Shown one piece after another: positions 16,201-60,641 of a DNA stretch of 64,000 nucleotides. The position numbers and the translations under genes were made by a program. The stretch lies in NCBI GenBank assembly GCA_950295325.1, contig OX485808.1, positions 18,994,527 to 19,058,526 on the forward strand, read 5' to 3'. The DNA is from Polytrichum commune. Taxonomy: Eukaryota; Streptophyta; Polytrichopsida; Polytrichales; Polytrichaceae. Below the pieces are notes generated by a model. It searched no databases, was not told where the DNA came from, and worked only from the letters and a program-made list of their open reading frames with translations. Numbering within the stretch: the first letter of the stretch is position 1; the number at the start of each line of letters is the position of its first letter.

Positions 16201-18202
16201 CTGATATCTTCTTCAAAGACCAACATTTAGAGATATCCAACTCCTCCAATCCATACAAGTTTGTCAATCCGGGAGGAAATTCCTCCAAAGCCTCACATGC
16301 TTGCATGGTAAGTTTTTTAAGACTCGTCAACCCACCGAATCCTTCCCGTATCTTCCTCAAAGACCGGCATTTAGAGATATCCAACTCCTCCAATGCATAC
16401 AAGTTTGTCAATCCGGGAGGGAACTCCTCCAAAGCCTCACATTCCCACATGTCAAGTTTCTTGAGACATGTCAACCCACCAAATCCCTCCGGTATCTTCT
16501 TTAAAGACCAGCATTTTGAGAAATCCAACTTCTCCAATGCACACGAATTTGTCAATCCGGAAGGGAACTCCTCCAGAGCTTCACATGCTTGCATGGTAAG
16601 TTTTTTAAGACTCGTCAACCCACCTAGTCCTTCTGGTATCTTCTTCAAAGACCAGCATTTTGAGATATCCAACTCCTCCAATGCACACAATTTTGTCAGT
16701 CCGGGAGGGAACTCCTTCAAAGCCTCACATTCCCACATGTCAAGTTTCGTGAGACTCGTCAACCCACCAAATCCTCCCGGTATAATCTTCAAAGATCGGC
16801 ATTTTGAGATATCCAACTTTTCCAAAGTGGACAAGTTTGTCAATCCGGGAGGGAACTCCTCCAAAGCCTCACATTCCCACATCTCAAATTTCTTGAGACT
16901 CGTCAACCCACCAAATCCTCCCGGTATAATCTTCAAAGACCGGCATTTTGAGAAATTCAAGTCCTCCAATGCACACAAGTTTGTCAATCCGGGAGGGAAC
17001 TCCTCCAAATCCTCACATGCTTGCATGGTAAGTTTCTTGAGACTCGTCAACCCACCCAATCCTTCCGGTATCTTCTTCAAAGACCGGCATTTTGAGATAT
17101 CCAACTCCTCTAATGCACACAAGTTTGTCAATCCGGGAGGGAACTCCTCCAAAGCCTCACATGCTTGCATGGTAAGTTTCTTGAGACTCGTCAACCCACC
17201 CAATCCTTCCGGTATCTTCTTCAAAGACCAGCATTTTGAGATATCCAACTTCTCCAATGCACACAAGGTTGTCAATCCGGGAGGGAACTCCTCCAAATCC
17301 TCACATGCTTGCATGGTAAGTTTCTTCAAACTCGTCAACCCACCCAATCCTTCGGGTATATTTTTCAAAGACCAGCATTTTGAGATATCCAACTCCTCCA
17401 ATGCACACAATTTTGTCAATCCGGGAGGGAACTCCTCCAAAGCCTCACATGCTTGCATGGTAAGTTTCTTGAGACTCGTCAACCCACCAAATCCTACCGG
17501 TATCTTCTTCAAAGACCGACATCTTGAGAAATTCAACTCCTCCAATGCACACAAGTTTGTCAATCCAGGAGGGAACTCCTCCAAAGCCTCACATGCTTGC
17601 AAGTCAAGTTTCTTCAAACTTTTCAAACCACCCAATCCTTGTGGAATCCTCTTCAAGAATTTGCATCCACTGAAATCCAATTCCTCCAACGCCATCAGCC
17701 TCTGTATCCCGGATGGAAATTCTTCCAAAGCATTGCAATCTCGCATGTAAAGTTTCTTCAAAGACATCAAGTTTTCCAATCCTTCTGGAATCCTCTTCAA
17801 GGATTTGCATCCACTAAAATTCAATTCCTCCAACGCCATGAGCCTGCACACCCCGGATGGAAATTCTTCCATAGCTTCGCATTCTTGCATGTACAGTTTC
17901 TTTAAAGACATCAAACCCCCCATTCCTTCTGGAATCCTCTTCAAGGATTTGCATCCACTAAAATTCAATTCCTCCAACGTTACAAGCGTGTGCACCCCGG
18001 ATGGAAATTCTTCCATAGCTTCGCATTCTTGCATGTACAGTTTCTTCAAAGACATCAAACCCCCCAATGCTTGTGGAATCCTCTTCAAGAATTTGCATCC
18101 ACCAAAATCCAATTCCTCCAACGCCGCAAGCGTGCACACCATAGGTAGAAATTCTTTCGAGGCATCGCATTCCAAGGCATTGCATTCGTGCATGTAGAGT
18201 TT
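10259..18202 (-). CDS. giant LRR exon: about 55 double-LRR units, no NB-ARC
   Basis: One uninterrupted frame of about 2,650 codons is built of a 48-residue double LRR, LTNLCALEELNFSKCRSLKK...IPEGFGGL plus LTSLKKLTMQACEALEEFPP. Counting the second half-repeat gives 55 units, or about 110 LRRs. The four N-terminal units (YMQECEAMEEFPSG, FSGCKSLKRIPEG) resemble the LRRs of copy B at 32590-34100. The remaining 51 form a separate expansion in which QAC-type and WEC-type units often alternate. The open frame extends to 18277, but only via a GTG. No ATG lies ahead of the first repeat and no NB-ARC precedes it, so it is not a complete NLR. A possible splice acceptor at 18203-18204 (TGTCTTTGAAG/AAACTC) is in phase with the donor of the preceding hydrolase exon. 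If used, the protein would be about 3,590 residues: pseudokinase, pseudohydrolase, LRR. Otherwise this is an orphaned LRR exon. Confidence 0.7.
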   Translation of the reverse strand, partial: KLYMHECNALECDASKEFLPMVCTLAALEELDFGGCKFLKRIPQALGGLMSLKKLYMQECEAMEEFPSGVHTLVTLEELNFSGCKSLKRIPEGMGGLMSLKKLYMQECEAMEEFPSGVCRLMALEELNFSGCKSLKRIPEGLENLMSLKKLYMRDCNALEEFPSGIQRLMALEELDFSGCKFLKRIPQGLGGLKSLKKLDLQACEALEEFPPGLTNLCALEELNFSRCRSLKKIPVGFGGLTSLKKLTMQACEALEEFPPGLTKLCALEELDISKCWSLKNIPEGLGGLTSLKKLTMQACEDLEEFPPGLTTLCALEKLDISKCWSLKKIPEGLGGLTSLKKLTMQACEALEEFPPGLTNLCALEELDISKCRSLKKIPEGLGGLTSLKKLTMQACEDLEEFPPGLTNLCALEDLNFSKCRSLKIIPGGFGGLTSLKKFEMWECEALEEFPPGLTNLSTLEKLDISKCRSLKIIPGGFGGLTSLTKLDMWECEALKEFPPGLTKLCALEELDISKCWSLKKIPEGLGGLTSLKKLTMQACEALEEFPSGLTNSCALEKLDFSKCWSLKKIPEGFGGLTCLKKLDMWECEALEEFPPGLTNLYALEELDISKCRSLRKIREGFGGLTSLKKLTMQACEALEEFPPGLTNLYGLEELDISKCWSLKKISEGLGGLTSLKKLNLQACEALEEFPPGLTNLCALEELNFSKCRSLEKIPGGFGGLTSLRKLDMWECEALEEFPPGLTNSCALEKLDFSKCRSLKIILGGFGGLTSLKKLHMWECEALEEFPPGLTKLCALEELDISKCRSLKKIPEGFGGLTSLKKLDMWECEALEEFPPGLTKLYALEELDISKCRSLQKIPEGLGGLTSLKKLTMQACEALEEFPRGLTNLDALEVLNFSLCWSLKKIPEGFGRLTGLKKLDMWECEALEEFPFGLTNLCALEELNFSKCRSLKKISEGFGGLTSLKTLDMQACEALEEFPSGLANSCALQKLDISKCRSLKIITGAFGGLTSLKKLDMWECEALEEFPPGWTKLCALEELDISKCRSLKKIPEGFGGLTSLKKLTMQGCEALEEFPPGLTNLCALEELNFSKCRSLKKIPGGFGGLTSLKKLDMWECEALEEFPSGLTNLCALEDLNFSKCRFLRKISEGLGGLMNLKKLTMQACEALEEFPPGLTKLCALEELNFSLCRSLKKIPEGLGGLTSLKKLDMWECEALEEFPLGLTNLCALEKLDFSKCRSLEKIPGGFDGLTSLRKLNMWECETLEEFPTGLTNSCALEELDFSKCRSLKKIPEGFGGLTSLKKLTMQACEALEEFPSGLTNLCALEELNFSKCRSLKKIPEGFGGFMSLKKLTMQACEALEEFPAGLTNLCALEELNFSLCRSLKNIPEGLGGLTILKKLDMWECEALEEFPSGLTNLCALEELDFSKCRSLKKIPEGFGGLTSLRTLDMQACEGLEVFPPGLLNLCALAELNFSKCRFLKKIREGFGGLTSLKKLTMWECEALEEFPPGLTNLCALEVLNFSKCRSLKKILEGFGGLTSLKKLYMWECKALEEFPPGLTNLCALEDLNFSKCRSLKKISEGLGGLTNLKKLTMQACEALEEFPPGLTNLCALEELNFSKCRSLEKIPGGFGGLTSLKKLDMWECEALEEFPPGLTKLCALEELDFSKCRSLKKIPGGFGGLTSLKKLTMQACEALEEFPPGLTNLCALEELNFSKCRSLEKIPGGLGGLTSLKKFDMWECEALEEFPPGLTNSYALEKLDFSKCRSLKIILGGFGGLTSLKKLDMWECETLEEFPSGLTNLCALEELDISKCRSLKKIPEGLGGLTSLKKLTMQACEALEEFPSGLTNLCALEELNFSKCRCLKIIPGGFGGLTSLKKFEMWECEALEEFPSGLTNSCALEKLDFSKCRSLKIILGGFGGLTSLKKLDMWECEALEEFPPGLTNLCALEELDISKCRSLKKIPEGFGGLRSLKKLDLQACEALEEFPPGLTNLCALEVLNFSLCWALKKIPEGFGGLTSLKKLDMWECEALEEFPPGLTNLCALEDLNFSKCRSLKKISEGLGGLTSLKKLTMLACEALEEFPSGLTNLCALEELNFSLCRSFKKIQEELGGLTCLKKLHMWECEALEEFPSGLTNLYALEKLDFSKCRSLKIIPGGFGGLTSLKKLTLQACEALEEFPPGLTNLCALEELNFSKCRSLKKIPGGFGGLTSLRKLDMWECEALEEFPPGLTKLCALEVLNFSLCWSLKKIPEGFGGLTSLKKLDMWECEALEEFPPGLTNLYGLEELDISKCWSLKKISEGLGGLTSLKKLNLQACEALEEFPPGLTNLCALEELNFSKCRSLEKIPEGFGGLTSLRKLDMWECEALEEFPPGLTNSCALEKLDFSKCRSLKIIPGGFGGLTSLKKLDMWECEALEEFPVGLTKLCALEELDISKCRSLKKISEGLGGLTSLKKLNLQACEALEEFPPGLTNLCALEVLNFSLCWSLKKIPEGFGGLTSLKKLDMWECEALEEFPPGLTNLYGLEELNFSKCRSLKKISEGLGGLTSLKKLTMQACEALEEFPPGLTNLCALEELNFSLCRSLKKIPEGLGGLTSLKKLDMWECEAVEEFPPGPSNLSAVEWKISRCRPLKKIPEGLGGLTSLKKVD

Positions 18203-18230
18203 CTTCAAAGACATCAAAAACCCAATCAAA
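10259..18230 (-). repeat. 144-bp tandem DNA repeat encoding the LRRs
   Basis: The LRR exon is itself a tandem array with a 144-bp period. Neighbouring units are close to identical at the DNA level (for example the block AATCCGGGAGGGAACTCCTC recurs through most of the array). Period and frame are preserved throughout, so selection or recent unequal exchange has kept the frame open. Confidence 0.9.
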
Positions 18231-18333
18231 AACCATGTATTTTGAAATTTTGTTATTAGATCCACACCTAAGCACACACCGTTTTAAATATAGGTATCCG
18301 ATCAAGAAAAGTAAATGAGTAAGGCCTGCATAC

Positions 18334-26127: not shown

Positions 26128-27345
26128 GGCTAGGGTGAACCAGCACCTACACTCGTACCTTCGGGGGATGAAGGCTACTTGTCCACAAATCCCATATTGA
26201 GTGCACTTCATTTTCAAGGTCTCAAATCCAATATATATGTTCACTTCCATTGAGTAAATAAGCAATTGACTAGATTTCATTTTCAAAGTGAAACCGTCAA
26301 TAAAGCATGCAATTAACTTGGAAGTCAAAAACATTACAAAATCCTCATTAATACTGAGGTTATAATTTTTGTCACTTACAATTGAAAGGGACCTTGTCAT
26401 TCTAAAATGAAACTAAAATTCATGATTTCTTTATTTTGTTTTTAATATTTTATAATGTATTTTAGTATAATATTTTTACTATAGTATTATATTATATATT
26501 TAATACCTTCTACAATCACAAAGTTTTCATACGCATTTAAACTAGTAAAGTAAGATTGAATGCAACTAAGTGTAATAATTTCTGGTTAATCCTAATGAAT
26601 CGTATTCAAGCCCAATTAAATCAGAAAATATGCGTACCAAATTAATTAACCCTAATTAATTATAAAATTTACTTACTGGAATTAGCCATGATTTAAATGG
26701 AATTAATTCCAGTAAATATAATTTATGATTAATTAGGGTTAATTAATTTGGTAAGCATATTTTCTGATTTAATTGGGTTTAATTAGGATTAATCAAAATA
26801 TATTAGACTTAGTTGCATTCAATCTTACTTAACTAGTTTAAATGCATATGGAAACTTTGTGATAGTAGAAGGTATTAACTATATTATATTAAAATATTAA
26901 AAACAAAATAAATAAATCATGAATTTTAGTTTCATTTTAGAATGATAAGGTCCCTTTCAATTGTAAGTGACAAAAATTATAACCTCAGTATTAATGAGGA
27001 TTTTGTAATGTTTTTGACTTCCAAGTTAATTGCATGCTTTATTGACGGTTTCACTTTGAAAATGAAATCTAGTCAATTGCTTATTTACTCAATGGAAGTG
27101 AACATATATATTGGATTTGAGACCTTGAAAATGAAGTGCACTCAATATGGGATTTGTGGACAAGTAGCCTTCAAAAATGCAAGTACACTAGTTTTTTCGA
27201 AATCGGGCGGGCGGGCAGCAGTTTTCGGTCGGGTGCAGAAAAAATGTCGGGGGGCTTTCCCATAAAGAAGGATGACGTTTTCAGTGTCATCCGCGAGCCC
27301 TTCATCCCCCGAAGGTACGAGTGTAGGTGTTGGTTCACCCTAGCC
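26128..27345. mobile_element. foldback MULE-like element with 9-bp target duplication
   Basis: 1,218 bp flanked by TTGACTTAC on both sides (26119-26127 and 27346-27354). Copy B has the empty site near 46706. The ends are long inverted repeats beginning GGCTAGGGTGAACCA and covering about 550 bp each; the right arm has about 130 bp of extra GC-rich sequence (27171-27299). A 9-bp duplication and very long terminal inverted repeats are typical of Mutator-like foldbacks. The frames at 26035-26400 and 26942-27265 are mirror translations of the arms, not genes. Confidence 0.8.
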
Positions 27346-32589: not shown

Positions 32590-35500
32590 TCAAGGTGCTG
32601 AAGGGACCCAAAACTGCCAATCCTTTTTAGAAGCTTCCCCATAGCCTTTGGAAATCTTCTTCAAGGATTTGCATTCTTTATAATTCAATTCCTCCAACGC
32701 CATGGACTTGCACACCCCTGATGAAAATTCTTCCAAATCCTCACAATCCCACATGGTGAGTTTCTTCAACCATGTCAAACCCCTTAATTCTTCTGGGATC
32801 TCCTTCAAAGATTTACATCCACGAAAATTCAATTCCTTTAATGCCACGAGCGTGCACATTCCGGATGGAAATTCTTCCAAGGCCTCGCAATCCCACATGT
32901 AGAGCTTCTTCAAAGACGTCAAACCCCCTAATCCTTCTGGAATCTTCTTCAAAGATTTGCATCTAGAAAAATTCAATTCCTCTAATGCCACAAGCGTGCA
33001 CACTCCGGGTGGAAATTCTTGCAAGGCCTCGCATTCCCACATATAGAGTTTTTTCAAACATGTCAAACCCCATAATCCTTCTGGGATTTCCTTCAAGGAT
33101 TTGCATCCACCAAAACCCAATTCCTCTAACGCCACGAGTGTGCACACCCCGGATGGAAATTCTTCCAAGGCCTCGCAATTCCACATGCCAAGTTTCTTCA
33201 AACATTTCAAACCCCCCAATCCTTCCGGAATCCTCTTCAAGGATTTGCATCCACGAAAATTCAATTCCTTTAATGTCATGAGCGTGCACACTCCAAATGG
33301 AAATTCTTCCAAGGCCTCGCATTCCCACATGCCAAGTTCCTTCACACATGTCAAACCCTTTAATCCTTCTGGAATCCTCTTCAAGGTTCTGCATCCTCCA
33401 AAACCTAGTTCCTCCAATGCCACGAGCGTGCACACTCCATATGGAAATTCTTCCAAGACCTCACATTCCCACATGTAAAGTTTCTTTAAACACGTCAAAC
33501 CCCCTAATCCTTCCGGGATCTTCTTCAAGGATTTGCATCCATGAAAGTACAATTCCTCTAACGCCACGAGCGTGCACACTCCGGACGGAAATTCTTCTAA
33601 GGCCTCGCAATCCCACATGTAGAGCTTCCTCAAAGACGTCAAACCCCCTAATCCTTCTGGAATCTTCTTCAAAGATTTGCATCTAGCAAAATTCAATTCC
33701 TCTAACGCCATGAGCGTGCACACTCTGGGTGGAAATTCTTGCAAGGCCTCGCATTCACACATATAGAGTTTTTTCAAGCATGTCAAACCCCATAATCCTT
33801 CCGGGATTTCCTTCAAGGACTTGCATCCACCAAAATCCAATTCCTCCAATGCCACAAGCGTGCACACTCCCGAGGGAAATTCTTCTAAGGCCTCACATTG
33901 CCACATGTAGAGTTTTCTCAAATATGTCAAACCCCGTAATCCTTCCGAGATATTTTTCAAACATTTGCATCCACCAAAACCCAATTCCTCCAATGCCACA
34001 AGCGAGCACAAACCTGATGGAAATTCTTCCAAGGCCTCACAATTCCACATGTAGAGTTTCTTCAAACATGTCAAACTTTCTAATCCTTCTGGGATCTTCC
34101 TTAATCCTCCAATCGTCTCTGGAAGTTTCTTTAGTACCCTACACCCTTCAAGATTAAGGTGTTGAAGAGACCTCAATCCTCCAATGCTCTTTGGAAGCTC
34201 CCTTAATGCATAGCAATTTTGAAGATTAAAATGTTGAAGGAACCCCAATCCTCCGATGCTCTTCGGAAGCTTCTTCAATGCTATGCATTCACTAAGATTA
34301 AGATATTGAAGGGACCACAATCCTCCAATCCTCTCCGGAAGCTCCTCCAATCTCCTACAATTACTAAGATTGAGGTGTCGTAGTAATCTTAGTGTTCCAA
34401 TGGTTCCAGGGACAGTTTTCAAATGTATATTTGAACGCATGTTCAAATATCGGACATTGGCCATATTTGTAAAGAAGGAATCTTCTATGACACAATGTTC
34501 AATGGTTGAGAATAGATAATGGCTTGAATGAACATCAAATGATGGATTCAACAAACATATTCTCAATTGAAGAGCTATGAAATTACCAGGATATTTGTTG
34601 ATTATTTTGCCACCCAAGGATATCCTCTTCACCTTCAATGGTGACCCTAACCAAGCATTTGGAAACTGCTCCAAAGTTTTCATTTCTGGCTTGAACAAGG
34701 TCTCACGTACAACCTCATCACCCTTCCTCGTCATGTGTGTTGCAAGATCATGTAAAATGTTATGCATTTTAACACAATTATTCTTGCAATCTTCAATAAG
34801 TGAACGCCTTCTCAGCTCATTCAAAGCAACACACGCTTTATCCATACCATCATTCTCATCAAGGTCGTGTCCAAATAAATCTTCTGCCATCCACATATGA
34901 AATAATTCTTCCCGAGATATTTCCCAATCTTCTGGGTAGGCTGCAAAATATAGGAAACATACTTTTGTGGCTTCATCCAATTGGTCATAGCTGATTTGGA
35001 GGCGAAAGAGTAGTTGTTTTTCAGCATCCTCTTTGTGCATTGCATTCGACTTTTGCAAATCTCGCAATAAAGTTCTCCATTCTGCACCTTCATCCTTGCA
35101 CTTCATTGTTGCCCCAATAACTTTCAATGCCAATGGTAAACGTTTGCAATCCTTGCAAACATCCTTAGCCAATCCTACCAATTCTTGGTTTGAAGGGAGC
35201 CCATTAATACCAAATGCATGAATACAAAACAATTCCCAACTGTGCTCCTCTGACAAGAATAAAATAACTTCCACACTTGCCTTAAGGCAACGTAGGATTG
35301 GCAAAAATCTTGTCGTGACCACTGTTAGACTCCCAAGTCCTGTTGCAATGTTCAACCAATATACCATCTCTTTGTAATCATGAAAATTGTTCCACACATC
35401 ATCCAATATCAACAACACTCTCCGTTTTGAAAACTCATTCATCAAATGTGTGCGTTGGGCTTCAAGAGATGTTTCACTACTAATGTGAACATTTAGATAC

Positions 35501-36180
35501 TCCCTCATTCGTACATATAAAGAGGGCATCGATGCACCACGTCCAACTGTGATCCAAAAAATGGAGGTTCGTCCAAATGATTTTTGGATTTCTTCATCAG
35601 TGTTCACCATTTGAGCAAGCAAAGTTTTCCCAGATCCACCCATGCCGTGAATGCCCACACATATGCTACTTTGACTTGCATTCCCATCAATGATTGTTGA
35701 CTTGACTCTTTTGAAATGATCCTCCATTCCAACAATCATGTGAGGAACCTCTTGTGCCAAGACACAAGGGTGTATGTGGGATTTGCTTTGGATCGTTAAA
35801 TATGCCAAGGGTGAAAGACTTACGATTTCAGTGAACTTTTTCTTGAGCTCCAATATTTGAAGCCCATATTTCGCTTCCATAGCTTTCTCCCAATTAGAAT
35901 TGTCTTGGCATTTGTCCAAAATTTTCTGGGCATCTTCAACACACTTTTGAAATGCATCCAACCATTTTTTTAATGCCTCCTCGGCTTCACACTCATCACA
36001 TTTTTGCAATACCATAGGTTTAATCATCTCCAAATATTCTCGTAAAGTTGTGCATTGTTCATGGCAATGGTAAACAAACTTTAATCCTTCGATTGTCTTG
36101 TCAACTAAGGTCATAACACCTCCAACATCAACACCAAAAACAATGCATGGAGTTGAGTTCACAATGTCCGATCCCACCAC
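32590..36180 (-). CDS. copy B exon 6: helical domain, NB-ARC and LRR
   Basis: 1,196 codons. A helical region of about 125 residues at the N-terminus (TIEGLKFVYHCHEQ..., ALKKWLDAFQKCVEDAQKIL) resembles the RPW8/CC-type bundles of plant NLRs. NB-ARC landmarks, by approximate position: P-loop GIHGMGGSGKT (180-189), Walker B VLLILDDVW (258-266), RNBS-B VVTTR (290), GLPL-like RLPLAL (350), RNBS-D CFLYFAAYPEDW (411), and an MHD-position motif reading VKMHNILHDLA (475), that is MHN. The LRR domain starts near 560 with four classical 24-residue repeats (LPERIGGLWSLQYLNLSEC type). About eleven 48-residue double LRRs follow, of the type massively expanded in copy A. The stop at 32590 follows FWVPSAP. 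Confidence 0.85.
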   Translation of the reverse strand: MVGSDIVNSTPCIVFGVDVGGVMTLVDKTIEGLKFVYHCHEQCTTLREYLEMIKPMVLQKCDECEAEEALKKWLDAFQKCVEDAQKILDKCQDNSNWEKAMEAKYGLQILELKKKFTEIVSLSPLAYLTIQSKSHIHPCVLAQEVPHMIVGMEDHFKRVKSTIIDGNASQSSICVGIHGMGGSGKTLLAQMVNTDEEIQKSFGRTSIFWITVGRGASMPSLYVRMREYLNVHISSETSLEAQRTHLMNEFSKRRVLLILDDVWNNFHDYKEMVYWLNIATGLGSLTVVTTRFLPILRCLKASVEVILFLSEEHSWELFCIHAFGINGLPSNQELVGLAKDVCKDCKRLPLALKVIGATMKCKDEGAEWRTLLRDLQKSNAMHKEDAEKQLLFRLQISYDQLDEATKVCFLYFAAYPEDWEISREELFHMWMAEDLFGHDLDENDGMDKACVALNELRRRSLIEDCKNNCVKMHNILHDLATHMTRKGDEVVRETLFKPEMKTLEQFPNAWLGSPLKVKRISLGGKIINKYPGNFIALQLRICLLNPSFDVHSSHYLFSTIEHCVIEDSFFTNMANVRYLNMRSNIHLKTVPGTIGTLRLLRHLNLSNCRRLEELPERIGGLWSLQYLNLSECIALKKLPKSIGGLGFLQHFNLQNCYALRELPKSIGGLRSLQHLNLEGCRVLKKLPETIGGLRKIPEGLESLTCLKKLYMWNCEALEEFPSGLCSLVALEELGFGGCKCLKNISEGLRGLTYLRKLYMWQCEALEEFPSGVCTLVALEELDFGGCKSLKEIPEGLWGLTCLKKLYMCECEALQEFPPRVCTLMALEELNFARCKSLKKIPEGLGGLTSLRKLYMWDCEALEEFPSGVCTLVALEELYFHGCKSLKKIPEGLGGLTCLKKLYMWECEVLEEFPYGVCTLVALEELGFGGCRTLKRIPEGLKGLTCVKELGMWECEALEEFPFGVCTLMTLKELNFRGCKSLKRIPEGLGGLKCLKKLGMWNCEALEEFPSGVCTLVALEELGFGGCKSLKEIPEGLWGLTCLKKLYMWECEALQEFPPGVCTLVALEELNFSRCKSLKKIPEGLGGLTSLKKLYMWDCEALEEFPSGMCTLVALKELNFRGCKSLKEIPEELRGLTWLKKLTMWDCEDLEEFSSGVCKSMALEELNYKECKSLKKISKGYGEASKKDWQFWVPSAP

Positions 36181-39100
36181 CTGACACAAACAAAAAAATC
36201 AACAAGGTTATTTTTTAGTTCCTTTAACTCTACCATAATTTTTTATTTTCATGTTGATGCAAATTGGGTAGTCAAATTTTGTATCGAGCTTTGATAAAAG
36301 TTGAGTTGACGTTCTAGCGAATTTACATCTAAGGTAACCATTACAATCATTGAAATTAAGGGCTTGTCCTCCCACCAACAATTAATTAACTCATGACATA
36401 CTCATGACCATAGTCCTACACGTTGTATTCCATGTTTAGGTGAAGTATGCAACCTCCGAGTATTCACTAGAGAAATATTAGAAATAGGAAGTGACCTAAT
36501 ATAGGGTACTCTTTATTTGTGCAAACAATTTTTTGAAACATATTGAATGTACTATTGCATCATTTCTATTTATAGATTGTAGTATAAATATTATATGGGT
36601 ACCCTATAATGTCATGTATTACTCCTTTTGTAGACCTAAATATAGGGTACTATGTTTAAGATGGTAGAAACCTTGTAGAAGGTTAGAAGGTTTCTCCACT
36701 CCCAACCTCAACACTTGAGCATTTAATAGTATTCTTGTAGTGGTCAATCATGTATTGTAGTGTTTTTGTGATGTTTAGTAATGTTCTTGTCGTTGTGTTC
36801 TTGCTCATCGTGTTGCATTGTTTGGTGTCTCAATCCTTTGTCATTGTTGTATTCCACCTTTTATCTACAAACTTAGTAACATAAAGCAATCCATATATTG
36901 TGTTGATGGTGCTTTATGTGCCTAAGCATGTAGATAAAAGGTGCCTCAGATGACCACATATATAGTGATGTTAAACAACACAAAAGAGGCATTTCGTAAA
37001 TTACCACAGGGTTGAGTTTGATTAAAAAAACATGAAGTTCAAACTACCAAAGGAAGCAAGATTATAGGGTAAAGTAGAAGTAAAAAAAAAAGGTATTAGA
37101 AAAAGAAAAATATTAGATAAATAGCCCCCTAAAAAAACTTCGACGCACGTATATACATAACTTATGAGATAGTGAAGTACCAATGAGTGAAGATTCTTGA
37201 ACTCATTAAATGGCCTTATAGGTCTCCCCAATTATGTTAACTATTGAACTTAGAATTGCTAGCAAATTTTGAGCACTTAGTCTAATCTCTTTTCAACACT
37301 TTTTGAAATATTTTTTTTAGATCCACACCTAAGCACACACCATTTTAAATATAGGTGTCTGATCAAGAAAAATAAATGAGTAAGGCCCGCATACCTTGGT
37401 CAGAGGAATCATATCTTTCTTAAGGCAATCCAATAACTTCTTGTAGCCAACATGCTCCTTAGAATGGGGTCGGCAAATTTCAAAATGGTTATCTTCTTCA
37501 ATTTCCTCAGATATCCACCTGACTGGTCTCACTTTTGAGTTCCCTGAAATCTGGACTTTCTGCACAGATATTGTTTCCAAGTCTAAGGACATAAGTTCAT
37601 GATGTCCAAGATGACTGTCAGTTACCAGAAACCCAAGGAGAAAAGTGCATGATATAAGTACTAATACATTTCACCTCAATCATGGAAATAAGTGTGAGAC
37701 CCAAATAGTATTTTTGACCAATTGCACAAAGAATTCTCCTCAGTCCTATCCTTACTAAACTTTTACTAGATGGTTCGCAGCAAACTAAGTAGATGTTGCA
37801 CATCAACAACTCACTTAACACTACAGGGAGCACTTGGTCACATTACTCTAGTTCTCTTCCACTAGATGGAGATCACTATGATGGGAGACTCTAAAGCCAC
37901 ATCCATTGATTTTAGAAGCATCTAGTGGGAGAAAACCAATGGTAATAGCACACAATTCCAGTAGTGTAAACTGGTACTGAAGCTTAAAGAAAGACAAAAC
38001 TTGATATGCAGAAACAACCATATTCCGTAAGCAATTTGCTTACCTTTCCTTTCCCTTCCACAAACGAAAGGATCACTGTCATTTTGGGCACCCTCGCCTC
38101 AAAATCAACACTGAGCTGCCTCATTTGTTGACTAAATGCCTCCATGTCTTTTGTTAGCCCCTTCAAGAGGCCACTCCTTCGCAACACACGTGACTTGTTG
38201 CTTTCCATGATGTAATGCTCAAACTCCCTAGTGCCCTCTACAGTGGAATGAGGGACACTGAAAAAGACAATGCCTCTCAACTTTTCCAGAAAATTGTATG
38301 CCTCCTGCCGTTCTTTGTCTCTTTGTTTTATGTCGTCTTCTTCACCCACTTGTTTAAGCACGTGTTCACACACATGGTTGTAAGTTTGGAATATTAGGTT
38401 CTTAACTACCAGACCTCCGTACCCATGCCCAACGAGCACAATAGAATGCTGAGGGTCAGTAGCATTTGCAGGTGAACTGCATACAAAGTCAACAAGATAA
38501 GGTGGTAAGCAGGCTTGATTTGGTTACTTATCCTAATCAGACACCTATATTTGAGTGGTTAGGTGTGCATCTAAGAACTGAAACCAAAAAGACGTGTGTT
38601 TGAGAGATTGGATTACATGCTCAAAATCGGTTAACTATTCCAGGTTCAAGAGTCAAAATAAATCAAAATTGCAGGGACCTATATGAATTACCATCACTTA
38701 AGAAGAAAGGAAAATTCCCTCTGATAATAAAACAATGAATGAGCTATTCATATGAGCTCGAAATATTATGAGGAAAATGATCACAACCTTGATTTGGATT
38801 GGCTAATCATCTTGTACTAATCACATGTTTGATAACCTAGGAGAAGTGGGTGCAGCACTACGAGTGTATGTTTTAGGTCCAAGTACCTTAGTGATGATAC
38901 AGACTACGAAGTGCTGAAATACAAGTAATCCTCTGCAACCTTTCAACAGTGAAAGTGGAAGGAGGAATATATTAAGATGTGGTAAAGAAGACCGCTGCCA
39001 GCAACTGACAAGTTCGTGGCTGGGTCCCACATAGAAACTTAATTCATCGGCACTCATACCCCCTCCTCTGAAAGATTTACATCATCCTCTGAAGGAAGGT

Positions 39101-42100
39101 AGGAAAGAAAGATGACACCAAAAGCATTTAGCATAAAGAAAAAGAAAAGGAAAAAGCAACCTCTTTTCTAGGGACATGGTTTAAATGCAAACTTCTGATC
39201 CCATTAGTGCAAAGAAGAAGTTCTCTCAAAGAAGGTTCCTCTATGAAAAGAAAAGAAAAACCAACGTCGGGCAATCCGACGTGAATTTGAGCCCGTTGGC
39301 CCTATCATGCTCAAGAATTTCCTTGATGCAGGGTGGGGTTTACTACCTACCTTGCGATGGGTGGGCTCGGTTCCTCTCTTATGTGTGTGCACATTAACTG
39401 CCTTCCATTTCTCAACCATCTAAGTGTTGCGGTGACTAACCCAGCTACTTGGGAGTCATTCCAATCCCCTACTTGCTACAACCAATTATTCACATATTGG
39501 GTTAAGTTCACCTTCAAGTGACGCTGCTTCACTGTGGCTCACCTAGTTAGATGAACCAACAACCAATATGATCATCTTCTCCACTTCTAGTGCCCCCATT
39601 TGTTTTTTAAAGAACCGTTTTCACATTGGAACCTGTATGCACCTTCCATTAACTCTTTTGATCATGTCTACATTACAAATTACATGAATTCTCAATTTTG
39701 TCCAAACTGTTTAAGCTCCAAGAATGAGGAAATCACCTGAAAATTAGGCTTTTCACCAAGTCCTTGCCCAGATGATCAGTCATCTCCTCATTGGGACCAA
39801 TATCATTATATGAGACAGACAAGACACGAACATTCATGCCACCCAGATCCTGGGGCAGCCATGTCTGTGGCCATATTTCCTTGCTATCACGTGTCATCCA
39901 TGTAGTTTTCCATTCTTCAGAGCCCTTGGGGAACCCATGGAACAAAATGAAAGTGACACCAGCTTCGGAGGAAACTGGATATGGATCGCCCACTTCTGGA
40001 TACAACTGATGCACGTGATGACTCCTAAAGGTACTTATTTCCTGAACAATCAAATCACCTTGTCAGGGAAGCAAATTTTACTAATTGAATTTATTTAGAC
40101 TACATTTATTGGGGTGACAATAAATTAAGAATTTGCCATGCTGAACAACCAAACAATTTGATTCCGGTTCACTTTTTCCTGATGTCAAAAACTAGTGGAA
40201 TTAGAACAGAAACACAAATTCCCCTGTCTGAGTTGCTGCCTCTAGACTACTGGCTGTTGGAGACAATAAAAAGATGTTATGGTCCACAGTCAACAACAGT
40301 AACAGTTATAACATGAGTGCGAGATTTGGAATTCCCTTTAAGTACCCACCTCTGATGTGCCTGGGCTTGAAAAATTAACAGCACAACCTGTCAGTCACCA
40401 GAAATATTCATTAGGTTGAAATCGTAGACAACATAAACTTAGGCTCTTTTGAGGGGCTAATAAGGTATGTGGATCTAATGTGGTCACTCTTCTTAATAGG
40501 ATGCCTATATTTGAGTGGTATATGGCAAGCCTTGTAGTCAAGAATGGATATTAGAAAGACATGTGTGACAATGGGATCAGACTATACGCTCAACGTATAT
40601 TAACCATCTTAGGTCAAATTGTTAGCACAATTGGGAAAGCCTATGTGATCACTTGAAGAGTAAAACAATCTTTACTTTGACCTCTTAGAAATTTTTCATC
40701 TAAACTCTGATTCTGAAACTTGAAGTGACAATCTGCATGATTCACAATTCCTGACTAGGTAAGACATTTCCTAGGCCGATCCAACAGCCCGAAATGTCTA
40801 CAGAGTTGGAACTGCCCACAATAGGGCCACATACCTAATGCACATGACACGAAGCACCAAGATTTTGTTATTGGAATGGATCGTAACTCTGCAGAACAAC
40901 TTACCTCCAAGCGACATGTTACTCTCGACCAAGCTTTTGTTTCTGTGAATCTCCTCATCCTCCTTACCCTCTAGCATTCGCAGTTTTGTGAGCAATAGCA
41001 GAATTACAACTTCTGAAAATGTGAGTGTCGCACTCAAGCAATTTTCAATGCAGTATCTCATTGTTGGAGGAGTTCTCTCTGGGATATGATGTTGGATTGA
41101 ATCCTCAGATTGCACATTTCCAGTGAGTATGGCCAAGCAAGTTAGTCCAAAGAAGTACACATCACGGCTCCGGTCCTCAGGGTCACACTTCATTGAATTA
41201 CCAAAGCCGCCAAGCTTTACTACATAATAGTGTTCAATTTGGTTAAAGTTCCTAGTGGTATCAGGTTTTAGTAGGACACTGGCACATTCAAGATGAGGAT
41301 GTGCGACACCCATGTCATGCATGTAAACCATACCCTTGGCTATCTGCAGCATAATATCAACAGCCTCAACCAGGGAGAACGGGGCTTTAGTTTTGTCCGG
41401 CCCTTTTCTTGACTTGTTGGCAATAAACTCCTCTAAGTCACCATCCATAAGCTCCATAACAAGAAACAAGTAACTTTGTTCAGTCCAATAATGCATGAGG
41501 TCCACTATGTGCGGATGCCATAACCGCGCGAGATCAGGTGGCTTAACATTAGTGTCATCATATAATTCTGTAGTAGAAATGTCCAGTCTCTTCAGAGCAC
41601 ATTCTTCCCCGGAATACCGCGTTCGGATAACCCAACCCTTATCCGACACTCCTAGCATATCTTGAAACAAATCAATGGTGATATGATCTTGAATGGGCGA
41701 TCCTCTTTGCTTGGCTCGGAATATGTCAACAGGTTCTACCACATTAAAAACACCAACATGTGAAACTCTATCCTCCCTATCCCTGATTTCAGTGAGAACC
41801 ATATCAAGGTCTAATTCCCATATCTCGTCACGGACCGATTTAATGCCATCCTCAGACACCTTCCTGCGCTTGGGGTCAGGCAGGCGTGCTTCATAGGACA
41901 TGTTTGAAGATTCAGGATTGACGTGAGCTGGTATCCATGAGGTGGCTTCTGCTGGGTGTTTGCCCACCCTGAGTCGGTCTCTGTCAGGAGAGATGGCACG
42001 AGAAACTTCTTGCCATCCACTACCATCCGGATAGGTTTGCGAGAACGTGCCTTGCGAAACATCACTCACTGGAGCTGAATACTCAGGTTCATGATCCTCA

Positions 42101-42840
42101 GCTATTGAGTGAACATTTACAGAGTTAAGAATCTCCATTGGATCTCTACCAATTCCACACAACTCTCCCCCAAAGGAGGGAACACTCGGAAAGGAGTTTA
42201 AACTGATAGGGTGTAGGTTTTCCACCACAGCGAGGTCGACATCGACTTCAACATCTTCCGTCGCCGGCTCGTCCCATGGAAACATTAATCTTCTCGTGAA
42301 CGATCCTTCTCTTTGAATTAGGAGCGCCTGAAGCTGATATGAGGGGAGGTGCCTCTGCCTCCTCCACGGCGTCTCGCGTCTAGCTAAATTAATCACCCCT
42401 GCATTTGGCTCCTTCTTCGAAATATAATCCGCATCCCTAAGTTGTGTCGCAGCTAATTCTTCAAGTTGTACTTGCAGTGAGAAATAGGTCTGAGGATCTA
42501 GCAGCTGCCCTTTCCCTACCTGAAGTGCAACTACACAGGTCCACCATTGTAAGTCAAAGAGATTCTGCATAAAATATTCATGCGTTGTGATGCTCCAGTC
42601 TGTACTTGAATCCAGTAATGCCTTCGTAGCCGCTATTACTCGGTACAGTTCTCGATGAACATTCCCATGTTCCACCAAATGCTCTTCCGGAACACTTTCC
42701 AACACTCCCTTGGTGTATTGAAGTTGGCGATCAAACACGAGGCCTTGATCCTGAGCTGTATAATGCCACCTTGATTCCACTTGATTGAGGGTTTGGATGC
42801 CAAGCTCAACAAAGGAGCCTGGCATAGTACTTGTGCTCAT
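32590..42840 (-). CDS. copy B: pseudokinase-pseudohydrolase-NB-ARC-LRR receptor (six exons)
   Basis: Exons: 42840-40905, 40360-40350, 40041-39737, 38476-38044, 37559-37395, 36180-32590, giving 2,146 residues. Every border is GT/AG with matching phases. The decisive join is exon 5 to 6. Exon 5 ends phase 0 at AAG/GTATGC. Exon 6 is preceded by a strong acceptor (TTTTTTTGTTTGTGTCAG) and opens in phase 0 with VVGSDIVNS, and no ATG lies at its start. The product would be an intracellular NLR immune receptor whose N-terminus stacks an inactive kinase and an inactive alpha/beta hydrolase ahead of a helical domain, NB-ARC and LRR. Mosses are known for kinase-NLRs and liverworts for hydrolase-NLRs; both modules in one chain is what makes this unusual. 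The alternative is two adjacent genes, with exon 6 starting at the internal M of GGVMTLVDK and the first gene ending about 21 codons after the exon 5 donor. Confidence 0.65.
36181..37394 (-). other. last intron of copy B (1.2 kb)
   Basis: Donor AAG/GTATGC at 37394 and acceptor TGTCAG at 36181. The first 76 bp are shared with copy A; beyond about 37319 copy A has the LRR array instead. No coding frame is credible. It contains a short inverted repeat around ACCTTTTATCTACA (about 36859) and TGTAGATAAAAGGT (about 36937). If exon 6 is a separate gene, this stretch would hold its promoter. Confidence 0.6.
37395..40041 (-). CDS. copy B exons 3-5: alpha/beta-hydrolase with lost nucleophile
   Basis: Exons 40041-39737, 38476-38044 and 37559-37395. 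Same landmarks as copy A: FILFHGFPKGSEEWK, LVGHGYGGLVVKN (Ser replaced by Gly), VFFSVPHSTVEGTREF, NHFEICRPHSKEHVGY. Exon 4 has eight additional residues (CEHVLKQV-type, near 38350) relative to copy A, in frame. A 126-bp LINE fragment lies upstream in the kinase-hydrolase intron region of the locus, not in an exon. Confidence 0.75.
39243..39368 (-). mobile_element. 126-bp 5'-truncated LINE/SINE copy with 9-bp target duplication
   Basis: Flanked by GGTTCCTCT on both sides (39234-39242, 39369-39377); copy A shows the single empty site near 20140. The interior (TGAATTTGAGCCCGTTGGCC, then a GGTGGGCTC end) matches the 3' region of the LINE at 48345-48490. The tail at the plus-strand left end is an AAAAG-type simple repeat, also as in that LINE. 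Confidence 0.75.
40350..40360 (-). CDS. copy B 11-nt microexon
   Basis: GCACATCAGAG with AG before it (40361-40362) and GTGGGT after it. It gives G-T-S-E across the junction. Ten of 11 bases match copy A, and the length and borders are the same. Confidence 0.6.
40905..42840 (-). CDS. copy B exon 1: N-terminal domain plus pseudokinase
   Basis: 645 codons, the same length as in copy A, with about 45 residue differences by eye, many clustered in residues 320-360 and 405-415. The altered catalytic positions are identical to copy A: AHPHLECASVLL in place of HRDLKxxN and KLGGFGNS in place of DFG. The beta-3 lysine is kept. Shared losses mean they predate the duplication and have been stable since. 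The donor at 40904 is phase 1. Confidence 0.75.
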
Positions 42841-46423: not shown

Positions 46424-47472
46424 AAGGTAGAAAAATCGAAAACGGTGAATGACCATTATTGGTGCACTAGACTAAGGGTAGAATGATTCTTGTCTAGATC
46501 CAACATGGCTAATTGTAAAAGTGGTGGTCCAAAAAGAATGTAGTGATAAGTGGAATGTAGTGATTGGTTAGTTAGGTGTTGTTTCACACCACTTGCAATC
46601 ACTTTTGGGTGCCATTGCATTAACCATTTTGTTTGCATTCATATGCAGAATAAAATAGTTTGATGCTCAAATTAGGGAGACTTTATTGTACAAATAAGGG
46701 GTTTGACTTACTTGCCTCTTTGGAAGAATGTAACTACTTATTTACATAGAAAAAAATTATGAAACAACTTGCATACCTCAGCATTTCCTCTACCCCATCG
46801 CTGAAAAATCTTGCGCAAGTTTCAAGCCACTCTTTCCGGCCGAATCTCCTTATTTTCACCGTCTACCATATGTCTACTTGATTTATTTATTCAAAGTAAA
46901 TCCAAGAATCAAGGTCCATGAATGACTGAAGGTCCTTGAATCAAGGTCAAGGAATGAATTGACTTCATTCTTGATCCAAGGACCTTCATTCTTGGATCGA
47001 CTTTGAATAATTGAATTAAGGTAGACATATGGTAGACAGTGAAAATAAGGATATTTGGCCAAAAAGAGTGGCTTGAAACTTGCAAAATATTTTTCAGCGA
47101 TGGGGTAGAGGAAATGGTAAGGAATGCAAGTTGTTTCATAATTTTATTCCATGTAAATAATTAGTTATATTTTTTTTAAAGGCATTAAGTCAAACCCCCT
47201 ATTTGTACAATAGAGTCTCCCTAATTTGAGCATCAAACTATTCTACTATGCATGTGAATGCATACAAAACAGTTAATTCAATGACATCCAAAAGTAATTG
47301 CTAGTGGTGTGAAACAACACCTAACCGGCCAATCACTGCATCCCACCTATCATTGTATTCTTTTTGGACCATCACTTTTACAATTAATTATTTTGGATCC
47401 ACACAAGAATCATTCTACCCCTAGTCTAGTGCACCCGTATTGGTCATTCACCGTTTTCGGTTGTTCTACCTT
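46424..47472. repeat. large near-perfect palindrome (foldback), copy B
   Basis: Arms of about 510 bp converge on about 46955. Example pair: GCTCAAATTAGGGAGACTTT (46658) against its reverse complement near 47214. Both ends of the arms stop at the same TTCTACCTT / AAGGTAGAA position (46425 and 47463). The sequence just outside the right arm (CTTGAAAGAGGGGCTAATCA at 47492) is a direct copy of the sequence outside the left arm at 46308. No gene. Confidence 0.75.
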
Positions 47473-50825: not shown

Positions 50826-52348
50826 CTAAAGGGTGGTGGATTTGGCCTCACAAATGGTGATATCGATGGTTGCACTAATAGTTGTGATGTCAACCATATC
50901 ATATTGAAATTTGATATTCAATTTATTCAACTCTCGTAAAACATCCACAAGCGAGTTCAAATAAAAATGAAATTTGAAAGAATACATAATTTCATACCAA
51001 TGTGGTTCTTCATCTCTGAATAATTCTAATAATGCCAGCATGCACTGTAGTAAGCGGGTCATAACATTACCTCGAGAAAGCCACCATACTGTATAAATTT
51101 GTAAAACCACTACATAATTTTCTTCAAATACATCTTTCAACAATCGTTTTAGCTCATTGCGTCGATTTGTACTACTGCCCACCCACTCATAAACTTTGTT
51201 GGCAAAATGATCCAACATTTGAAAATCTGGAAAAGATCTAGCTGCATCTCCTGCAGCTAAAGCCTCACGATGTGCAATACAATACACATTTATGAGAGTT
51301 GGAACCTCTACACGCATTCTAGTTGCTAGTCCTGTACGATGTCCCGTCATACTAGAAGCCCCATCAGTGGCTAAAGCTACTTGTTTTAGAGGCATCCAAT
51401 GCATTTTCTCCAATAATCCAGTAACAACCTGATATATAGATTCAGCTGTACCATCTCGAAGAGCCAAAAGCTCAACAAATTTTGTAACATGAGGTCCTTT
51501 CCCATTGATTGATAATAAACAACATAAACAACCAAATGTTGTTCAAGAGTTCGATCAGTGGCTTCATCTATCATCAAAGAAAAAAATGGAGAGGATTGTG
51601 CCTCTGATAAAAATCTATCATTGAGATATTTTGATATTGTCCATAAAATTTCCAATGCTGCATATTCTGAAGTATATGAACCATATTTATCATTGACAGG
51701 CATATTTGGAGTCTATAGTAGTAAAAGCAATTGCCATGTATCTTGATAAGTCAATATTAAACGATCATTCCATACTGTAAAATATAAAACTTTCATTACA
51801 GTAATGATTCTTGATTGTTCTCTATCTACCATGACATTCAACCCTTGAATCACTGGAGGTGCATTTGCACGTTGTGGAAAATGTATATCCTCCCAACGAG
51901 CTACCGAATGTTTGTGATCAACACTCTTTTCATGAACCTTGACAGCTGATTTTTGTAAACTTTTGCAACTAATGTCTGTCCCCCATTTGGATTCAATACG
52001 CGTTTTTTGGCAAGCAACGCATTTAATAAAACTTGTTGTTGGCCCATCATTTGGTCCATAATGTAACAACCATGGCCTACCAATTTTCCATGAAGCCTTA
52101 AGAACTCTTCTATACCTTTGTTGATTGGGAATGACATGAGCAGGTTCTCGAATTACATCATTTCCAACATCATCATCTGATTGAGATTCATTCTCATTAT
52201 CCATGTTGAGAGAAAAAGTTCCATGTTCAAATCCTGGACTTTGTTGAGATGACTGAAATGAAGGTTGAAAAAACACTCTTCCACCAAAAATCTCATTCAA
52301 AAAAAGTTGACGAGCTCTTCCACGGTTGTTGTTACTTTCAGAAGCCAT
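50826..52348 (-). pseudogene. hAT-family transposase (KIAA1586-like), N-terminal and central parts
   Basis: The start is MASESNNNRGRARQLFLNEI at 52348. A TTF-like zinc-finger region follows (CVACQKTRIESKWGTD, then VHEKSVDHKHSVARW), then the transposase core with FFSLMIDEATDRTLEQHLV, VALATDGASSMTGHRTGLAT, NVYCIAHREAL and WWLSRG. An in-frame TAG at 51713-51715 interrupts LLLLL-TPNMPVND. A one-base loss near 51485 shifts the frame before TKFVELLALRDG. The sequence ends at 50826, short of the C-terminal region, which is found separately at 47870-48342. Not functional. Confidence 0.8.
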
Positions 52349-59209: not shown

Positions 59210-60183
59210 TGTCGCAACCCTTGCTAGCCCCCTTAACAATCTTGCTAACTTTCAATTCTAGCAAAGGTTACGAGTGGCTAACCCTTCGCATACCGCCATG
59301 CTAATGGTTAGCTCCTCTCACCCCGGACCTTGTAGTTCATAGAAGGGGAACCAACCCTCCTACTTTGCTTTCGGGACTCATCCCTTAATCGGTAACCAAT
59401 CCTTAGATGTGGACTTCCATCCATGGAAGTCCAATCTTATGTTGATCATCGTGTTGCCGGAGCAACACTACAACAACCCGAACCATACTAGGCAACTATG
59501 GCCTCACATTAGGCAAATGCCAATGGAGGCCGTGCCGTTCGGCCTCGGGTGGGTGAGGCCACACCACCTCACCCATATAAGCCTCTAGGACTTCACGCGG
59601 GGCCCCTACCCCACCGTCAACCAACCTCTTGTCTTTCTACCAAGAGTTGGGGCCAAGTGGACATTTTCCTTTAGCTGCTGGGCCTAGAACCCCCCCGCAG
59701 CTTCAGACCATCATAACTTCCTTGTATGATGTCTGATCATAACAACCAACCACTCCATCTTCATCTACGCGTCATGTAGATGCCGATGGACTCCTCACTT
59801 GCCCCATTCGGGCAAGTATTGAGGAAGTTATGCCTGTTTGAACCTTGGCAGTCCCGGGAATCACTCCCAGGCACTGCTGTACCAGGGCGCTGTCCCGGGA
59901 CAGCGCCCCACTCAAATGGCCATAACTCCTAGCTCACACCTCCGATTGAGGTGTTCTTGAGCTTTCTAGAATCACCACGCCATGAGCTACGCATAGCTTA
60001 TGGCCTTACCCTTGTGCCTCCTAGTCTCCGTGGGTGGGAGGCGTTCCCAACGCCCGGGGCCCTCACCCACACTAGGATCACTTGGGCCCTTTCACCAACG
60101 GCGCCACAAGTCCCGGGTGTCACTCCGGGGTCCCCCTTGTGCCCATGGTGTTTCGGGCACTCCTCATGGAGAGGTGCGCGACA
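59210..60183 (+). mobile_element. solo LTR (A) with target duplication CCAAG
   Basis: 974 bp, TGTCGCAACCCTTGCTAGCC ... GAGGTGCGCGACA, flanked by CCAAG at 59205-59209 and 60184-60188. It lies inside the minus-strand integrase gene, a few codons from its stop. It carries a 24-bp perfect palindrome GGGCGCTGTCCCGGGACAGC... at 59885-59908. Confidence 0.85.
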
Positions 60184-60641
60184 CCAAGTACCGAAGATCC
60201 TCGACAGCGAGGACAACTCCACTGTCCAGATGGTAGAGAAGTCAAGGGTGGCCTCAAGCATGCCATGTGCCAACCACGTTGACATTGATCACACAAGAGC
60301 ATAGTAACCGCTTCTTTCTTCTCTCCACACACAAAACATGGAAGACCCTCTGGCACGACGGCCAGTTCAGGATGAACTGTACCCTCAATGGGTAGATGAT
60401 ATGGGGCACAGTTTTTGGAATGCTCGCGACATTCCCTACCATCATTGCCTTCCAACAACAACAAACCACTCAGCAACACCTCCTTCACCCGAAGGATAGT
60501 GCGCCCCGCCCTGACATCCAATGTCGTAGGCGCCTTGCGTTGGAGATAAACATAATCCCCTTGCCGGAATCTCCGCAACTGAGGTTGGTAAGCACCACTG
60601 CGAATGCGTGCATAACGCAATGTGTCACGGTGCTGAGCAAT
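60184..60641 (-). pseudogene. Ty3/gypsy integrase C-terminus with PHD finger
   Basis: The minus strand reads IAQHRDTLRYARIRSGAYQP, LRRFRQGDYVYLQRKAPTTL (the basic C-terminal barrel of gypsy integrases), then EGTVHPELAVVPEGLPC and a C4HC3 PHD finger: CFVC, CDQC, GWHMAC, WSCPRC. PHD fingers read histone H3 tails, so the finger may guide integration; that role is inference. The frame begins at LTR B, which interrupts it. The upstream part continues beyond that LTR at 63905-64000. LTR A interrupts the extreme C-terminus. Confidence 0.8.

Follow-up and report, generated by a model that had tools for sequence, protein, structure and literature searches.

Analysis of a 64,000-nucleotide stretch of the Polytrichum commune genome (the window; contig OX485808.1, positions 18,994,527 to 19,058,526, on contig C6 of a 407.8-Mb genome in seven contigs, C1-C7, each longer than 40 Mb) showed a predicted gene, here called copy A, that appears to place two degenerate enzyme domains ahead of a nucleotide-binding, leucine-rich-repeat receptor (NLR). 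One chain stacking a pseudokinase and a pseudohydrolase in front of the NB-ARC domain and the leucine-rich repeats (LRRs) is, short of proof, the reading that the sequence supports best, and a single transcript joining the two parts is considered likely. The elements of this locus were as follows:

42840-40905, minus strand: exon 1, N-terminal region and pseudokinase
40387-40350, minus strand: exon 2, a 38-nt microexon that is kept in the tandem relatives B, C and D
40041-39737, minus strand: exon 3, first part of the alpha/beta-hydrolase-like domain
38476-38044, minus strand: exon 4, hydrolase-like domain with the nucleophile motif GHGYGG
37559-37395, minus strand: exon 5, end of the hydrolase-like domain, with His 929 kept and the splice donor AAG/GTATGC
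37397-37186, minus strand: dispersed repeat 1, with the exon 5 splice donor at its 5' edge
37188-36456, minus strand: dispersed repeat 2, about 730 bp, within intron 5
36180-32590, minus strand: exon 6, coiled-coil (CC)/RPW8-like domain, NB-ARC, winged helix and LRRs; first codon GTG
34100-34440 (borders approximate), minus strand: LRRs of the 24-residue type, as in the CC-NLR relative L007
32640-34099 (borders approximate), minus strand: LRR array of 48-residue units, as in the kinase-NLRs L022 and L023

All five introns began with GT and ended with AG, their phases agreed, and the joined chain was 2,155 residues long, followed by a stop codon. An earlier reading made from the letters alone (the sequence-only reading) had proposed these six exons at about 2,146 residues, and apart from the length its model was confirmed, as was the strong in-phase acceptor that it placed before the NB-ARC exon, which came second among 76 AG sites in the region when these were ranked by an ad hoc score for pyrimidines. 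The domain order that it gave (kinase, hydrolase, NB-ARC and LRR) was recovered, with the addition of a CC/RPW8-like domain between hydrolase and NB-ARC that had been overlooked. Of the Pfam matches by which it proposed to check the chain, those to Pkinase (E 1.9e-13, well supported) and NB-ARC (E 2.6e-37) were found, and the hydrolase matched solely below the curated cut-offs (PGAP1 E 0.0029, Abhydrolase_6 E 0.018). DUF1221, considered as a candidate for the N-terminal region, was not matched in Pfam.

Both enzyme domains had altered active centers. In the kinase of copy A the VAIK lysine was kept (residue 417), while HRD was replaced by HPH (514-516) and DFG by GFG (545-547). HPH and GFG were found in copies A-D, and HPL and GFG in two distant copies, E and F, without the HRD and DFG aspartates of active kinases. 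The GxSxG nucleophile motif of hydrolases was not kept: it read GHGYG in A-D (Gly 778 in place of the serine in A) and GHCFG in E and F, where the cysteine could still be catalytic, unlike the glycine of A-D. The histidine of the late motif, which we take to be a catalytic residue, was kept (His 929 in A). A profile search of the hydrolase region against solved structures gave a best E of 0.7, and a structure prediction for exon 4 was too poor for use (mean predicted local distance difference test score, pLDDT, 39).

The kinase exon matched four near-identical sequences (A-D) and two at 49-50% identity (E and F), out of 69 matches and 524 candidates; a further 92-residue fragment on the same contig matched at 61%, and many ordinary kinases ranked below. 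The hydrolase exon had six matches (10 candidates). Because all six fell at the loci of the kinase exon, the two domains form a standing pair, here called K-H, with six copies in the genome. PGAP1 was matched, below its cut-off, by all four of the K-H sequences given (A, B, D and E). The borders of exons 1-5, microexon included, were identical in all four tandem copies, and their recurrence in B, C and D shows that these exons are more than chance. C and D lie further along contig C6, outside the window, and the parts of B were as follows:

23605-21670, minus strand: B exon 1 (pseudokinase), same borders as in A
21153-21116, 20814-20510, 19390-18982 and 18498-18334, minus strand: B exons 2-5, same borders as in A
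10259-18202, minus strand: LRR array of B, reached from exon 5 through a possible 131-nt intron; no NB-ARC

After B exon 5, a frame open over about 2,670 codons (10259-18283, minus strand) held about 55 similar 48-residue LRR units, and 65 DNA copies of this LRR repeat family were counted in the window. In E and F, no NB-ARC or LRR was found in about 6 kb past the K-H exons, nor in the next 8 kb of E (best E 0.90); one K-H match in E extended 27 residues beyond exon 5 at 34% identity, probably by chance. A frame of repeated segments follows K-H in both (L005 4702-5985 and L006 6579-7427), with a period of 120 residues in E. This frame had no Pfam match above cut-off in E, the copy scanned, and may be a different C-terminal module for K-H.

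Exon 6 had the layout of RPW8/CC-type NLRs, with an RPW8/Rx_N-like CC, the NB-ARC domain, a winged helix (WH_DRP) and LRRs in one exon. The RPW8 match (E 0.00027, 21.0 bits) was below the curated cut-off of 30.4 and started at residue 29; in L009, the sole relative scanned, it reached 34.4 bits, over the cut-off, from residue 12, and WH_DRP was also present. Among the 86 of 409 candidates that were scored, the best matches to exon 6 were itself, eight relatives (L007-L014) at 64-67% identity on four other contigs, and two at 40-41%, so that its nearest relatives were CC-NLRs and not NB-ARC domains of the kinase-NLR or Toll/interleukin-1 receptor (TIR)-NLR type. A search of the CC against solved structures gave nothing at E 0.1, and its structure prediction (mean pLDDT 43) was too poor for use.

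The idea that a bryophyte kinase- or hydrolase-NLR had gained the other module was not supported. The NB-ARC part belongs to the RPW8/CC type, kinase and hydrolase were a pre-formed pair (all six hydrolase-exon matches lay beside a K-H kinase exon), and K-H gave no match in 2.2-2.6 kb of upstream sequence at any of ten CC-NLR relatives (8 close, 2 distant), nor in 8 kb more at the four loci fetched (3 close, 1 distant). The specific case of a kinase-NLR that gained a hydrolase was likewise rejected on its winged helix and CC type (WH_DRP here, WHD_ROQ1 in L022).

The start codon of the CC appeared to be lost in exon 6. In all eight close relatives an ATG stood directly after an AG, in both distant relatives ATG was the third codon after CAG, and in exon 6 the first codon was GTG. 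The statement of the sequence-only reading that this exon lacks a start at its 5' end was correct for this position, although an in-frame ATG was present at codon 23 (36114), with G at -3. The codons before this ATG aligned without gaps to seven of the eight relatives from the acceptor on. Over the first 22 alignment columns the proportion of nonsynonymous differences (pN) was 0.32 (mean of four relatives), the highest in the CC (next 0.30); by simple ranking, and narrowly, it stood second among all 50 windows. In its first stretch exon 6 had a helical hydrophobic moment of 0.04, where two close relatives had 0.14 and 0.15 and one of the distant ones had 0.22. With GTG for ATG and a diverged first stretch, exon 6 did not have the free N-terminal first helix of its relatives.

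Intron 5 consisted largely of two dispersed repeats, with about 275 bp outside them, before exon 6. Among the 36 other copies of repeat 1 listed, 19 began at query positions 41-45, which is the end of exon 5. In eight copies fetched, the border carried AGG in all eight, AAGG in seven and GTATGC in seven, and the preceding sequence was not shared. Because the copies carry AGG and GTATGC at this border with no shared sequence before it, the exon 5 donor sits on the edge of repeat 1. Repeat 2 matched at least 39 other places in full or in part (best 40 of 1,992 candidates scored). Upstream of the close relatives, six of the seven others shared more than 1 kb with L007, and L011 about 190 bp; in the 275 bp of intron 5 this shared region gave only matches of 13-16 bp (E 1.1), a weak negative since A has diverged further than the relatives have among themselves.

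Repeat 1 also indicated the direction of change among the tandem copies. B, C and D each kept only about 95 bp of it. At nearly the same point this remnant passes into an LRR array that has no NB-ARC, and no match to repeat 1 was found in the E and F stretches. Each of the 36 other listed copies extended at least to position 251, and 21 covered at least positions 50 to 253; this list is the best 40 of 2,951 candidates by score and favors long copies, and the argument needs just that repeat 1 is naturally longer than the B-D remnant, as it is in A. Because these three copies have the repeat in truncated form, and the lost stretch would not be easily regained, their arrangement is, by this comparison, derived. 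The simplest reading is that B-D would have arisen from a gene like A through a deletion running from the intron into the LRRs, and the stretch lost may have held the NB-ARC. The opposite course, insertion of an NB-ARC into a K-H-LRR gene like B-D, was rejected because the repeat is truncated in B-D and longer in A. The K-H-LRR joins were in phase in all three derivatives; in B the chain stayed open over 3,598 codons, and in C and D stops ended the LRR frames after 1,539 and 1,844 codons of joined chain.

Exon 6 itself appeared to be chimeric. Its first LRRs resembled the 24-residue units of L007, the only relative with LRRs read at length, and the remainder formed an array of 48-residue units that, among the matches listed, was shared with the kinase-NLRs L022 and L023 and many other places. 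Against all eight relatives dN/dS, the ratio of nonsynonymous to synonymous substitution rates, was 0.31-0.38 at a dS of 0.62-0.80 (compared across about 550 codons for four of them and about 185-225 for the other four), and by this measure exon 6 is under purifying selection.

Several observations weigh against a single functional chain. The hydrolase was found only below cut-off. Within the stretches examined, an NB-ARC match followed K-H in only one of the six copies (A), and among the matches listed the best for the LRR array of A lay elsewhere, not in B-D. The rooting of A-D by substitutions was not decisive (11, 9 and 7 sites, counted only if E agreed with F and B with C; the outgroup, E and F, consisted of concatenated open frames whose exons are unverified). 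The ATG at codon 23, because of which a shortened separate protein is possible, and nine candidate short first exons within intron 5 (34 in an opposite-strand control) would allow a separate gene. In that case there would be a K-H protein that, with intron 5 retained, reads through to a stop shortly past exon 5, near 37329, and a CC-NLR that has lost the start of its CC and begins either at ATG 36114 or in a small exon further upstream. The absence of an NB-ARC match from the other five K-H copies also fits two genes. We judge this arrangement unlikely: a start codon kept in all eight close relatives would have been lost here while the codons before the new ATG continued to align to seven of them from the acceptor, the upstream region of the relatives was not recognizable in intron 5 (a weak point, as noted), and the non-repeat part of that intron is so short.

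Also on the negative side are a stop inside exon 1 of C, a high dN/dS for K-H (0.50-0.82), which may reflect decay of the cluster, and the change of the MHD motif to MHN in exon 6, which could be decay as well, since MHD was present in all four close relatives covered there. These, with the broken LRR frames of C and D, are what would be expected if the whole A-D group were on its way to becoming pseudogenes and the open chain of A were a recent relic. Such a course seems rather improbable given that 2,155 codons remain open in A and 3,598 in B, that the P-loop and kinase-2 motifs of exon 6 are present, and that its dN/dS is low. The one-chain reading is favored because the start of exon 6 was lost, the acceptor is strong and in phase, the spacing is compact once the repeats are subtracted, and the NB-ARC part shows selection.

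Comparison with described receptors placed copy A between several classes. Kinase-NLRs (PNLs), a class described from mosses, and hydrolase-NLRs (HNLs) were reported by Xue et al. (PMC3352924), and Chia et al. (PMC11218826) reported that non-flowering plants have both types. Like the moss PNLs L022 and L023, A has a kinase exon upstream and a 48-residue-unit LRR array; L022, the one scanned, has a strong Pkinase and a Roq1-type winged helix (WHD_ROQ1), whereas A has WH_DRP and an RPW8-like CC, and the frames of L022 showed neither a hydrolase nor a CC. In P. patens PNLs a phase-0 intron is reported to separate the kinase from the nucleotide-binding site (NBS) (PMC3352924); in A the kinase lies upstream and a phase-0 intron precedes exon 6, but hydrolase and CC stand between kinase and NB-ARC. 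The weakly supported alpha/beta-hydrolase-like domain ahead of the NB-ARC may recall bryophyte HNLs, but A has glycine for the nucleophile serine, an intervening CC and an NB-ARC of the RPW8/CC type. By these comparisons exon 6 is not a kinase-NLR and probably not an HNL. With the RPW8/CC-NLRs L007-L014, A shares 64-67% identity, CC and NB-ARC in one exon, LRRs and (L009) WH_DRP, while these have an ATG at the CC and no K-H match in the upstream sequence examined. The single exon fits the absence of a conserved CC-NBS intron in CC-NLRs (CNLs; PMC3352924). Chia et al. reported integrated domains in several subtypes, including kinase and hydrolase types, and none in CC-MAEPL (PMC11218826). Among the titles and abstract openings listed, none announced a kinase-plus-hydrolase NLR, and the tables of Chia et al. 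(PMC11218826) may hold one; no first-report claim is made for this locus.

The closest functional parallel was found among NRC-dependent sensors of flowering plants, from which the division of labor between sensor and helper CC-NLRs has been described. In these, 65 of 117 had a long N-terminal extension before the CC, the MADA helix was proposed to have degenerated, and sensors with such extensions (Prf, Sw5b) were proposed to work via a helper (PMC6944444). The sensors Prf, Sw5b, R1 and Hero resemble copy A in having a long extension before the CC, a first helix that is not free and has diverged, and relatives with an intact start (PMC6944444). Copy A differs in that its extension is a pseudokinase and a hydrolase-like domain, its CC is RPW8-like, it is from a moss, and its helper partnership is putative. 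By this analogy, the best reading is that the fused receptor would work like angiosperm sensors with N-terminal baits, and the suggestion of the sequence-only reading that it is a composite decoy or sensor is a reasonable inference. If the fused protein is real, K-H could instead be an executioner or signaling module and not a bait, since two Marchantia hydrolase N-termini gave responses like the hypersensitive response in N. benthamiana, with a modest and variable effect of a P. patens kinase (PMC11218826). That role seems more improbable still than decay of the cluster, because both active centers were changed in all four tandem copies (HRD to HPH, DFG to GFG, serine to glycine).

With the bait role preferred, the following sequence of events is proposed. 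A dispersed repeat, whose position is as described, may have landed at the coding end of K-H and supplied a splice donor. From this donor, splicing would lead to an acceptor that corresponds in position to the AG directly before the start codon of close CC-NLR relatives, an AG that may be a used acceptor in those relatives. A CC-NLR would in this way have become the 3' part of a K-H gene and lost its own start, now GTG, though the order of these events may differ. The N-terminal dead enzymes would be a bait for pathogen molecules directed at kinases or hydrolases. The pseudokinases that partner ZAR1 (ZED1/ZRK) are bait for an NLR, as separate proteins; at this locus the pseudokinase is part of the same predicted chain. 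The first CC helix, buried and diverged, would no longer be able to execute cell death, and the activated NB-ARC may engage an intact CC-NLR helper, for example one of the eight free-helix relatives. B, C and D would be derivatives that lost the NB-ARC. That A is one receptor chain (pseudokinase, pseudohydrolase, RPW8-like CC, NB-ARC and LRR) working as a fused sensor is, in our estimate, an evenly balanced proposition. The fuller history is offered more tentatively: the donor of a mobile repeat would have fused an existing K-H gene to a helper-class RPW8-type NLR, so that an executor became a sensor. Bryophytes would then offer an independent case in which a bait precedes the CC and the first helix is lost, with tandem derivatives that keep bait and LRRs without NB-ARC.

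Other features of the window were two inverted repeats, 26169-27173 and 46424-47472 (284 nt at 99% and 287 nt at 87%), which resemble mobile elements or hairpins and beside which lie stretches that match each other at 85-86%. A PHD finger (Pfam 5.2e-12) was found in an open frame at 60120-60731 on the minus strand, and a frame at 51713-52348, also on the minus strand, matched a C17orf113-type zinc finger just over the cut-off. Zinc fingers of this type occur in transposon-derived proteins.

If the proposed reading is correct, two dead enzymes would precede a helper-class CC within one receptor of this moss, whose genome also has intact relatives of that CC-NLR. A splice donor carried by a repeat would be a plausible route to such a fusion, and the independent origin of sensors in bryophytes would become a directly testable question.

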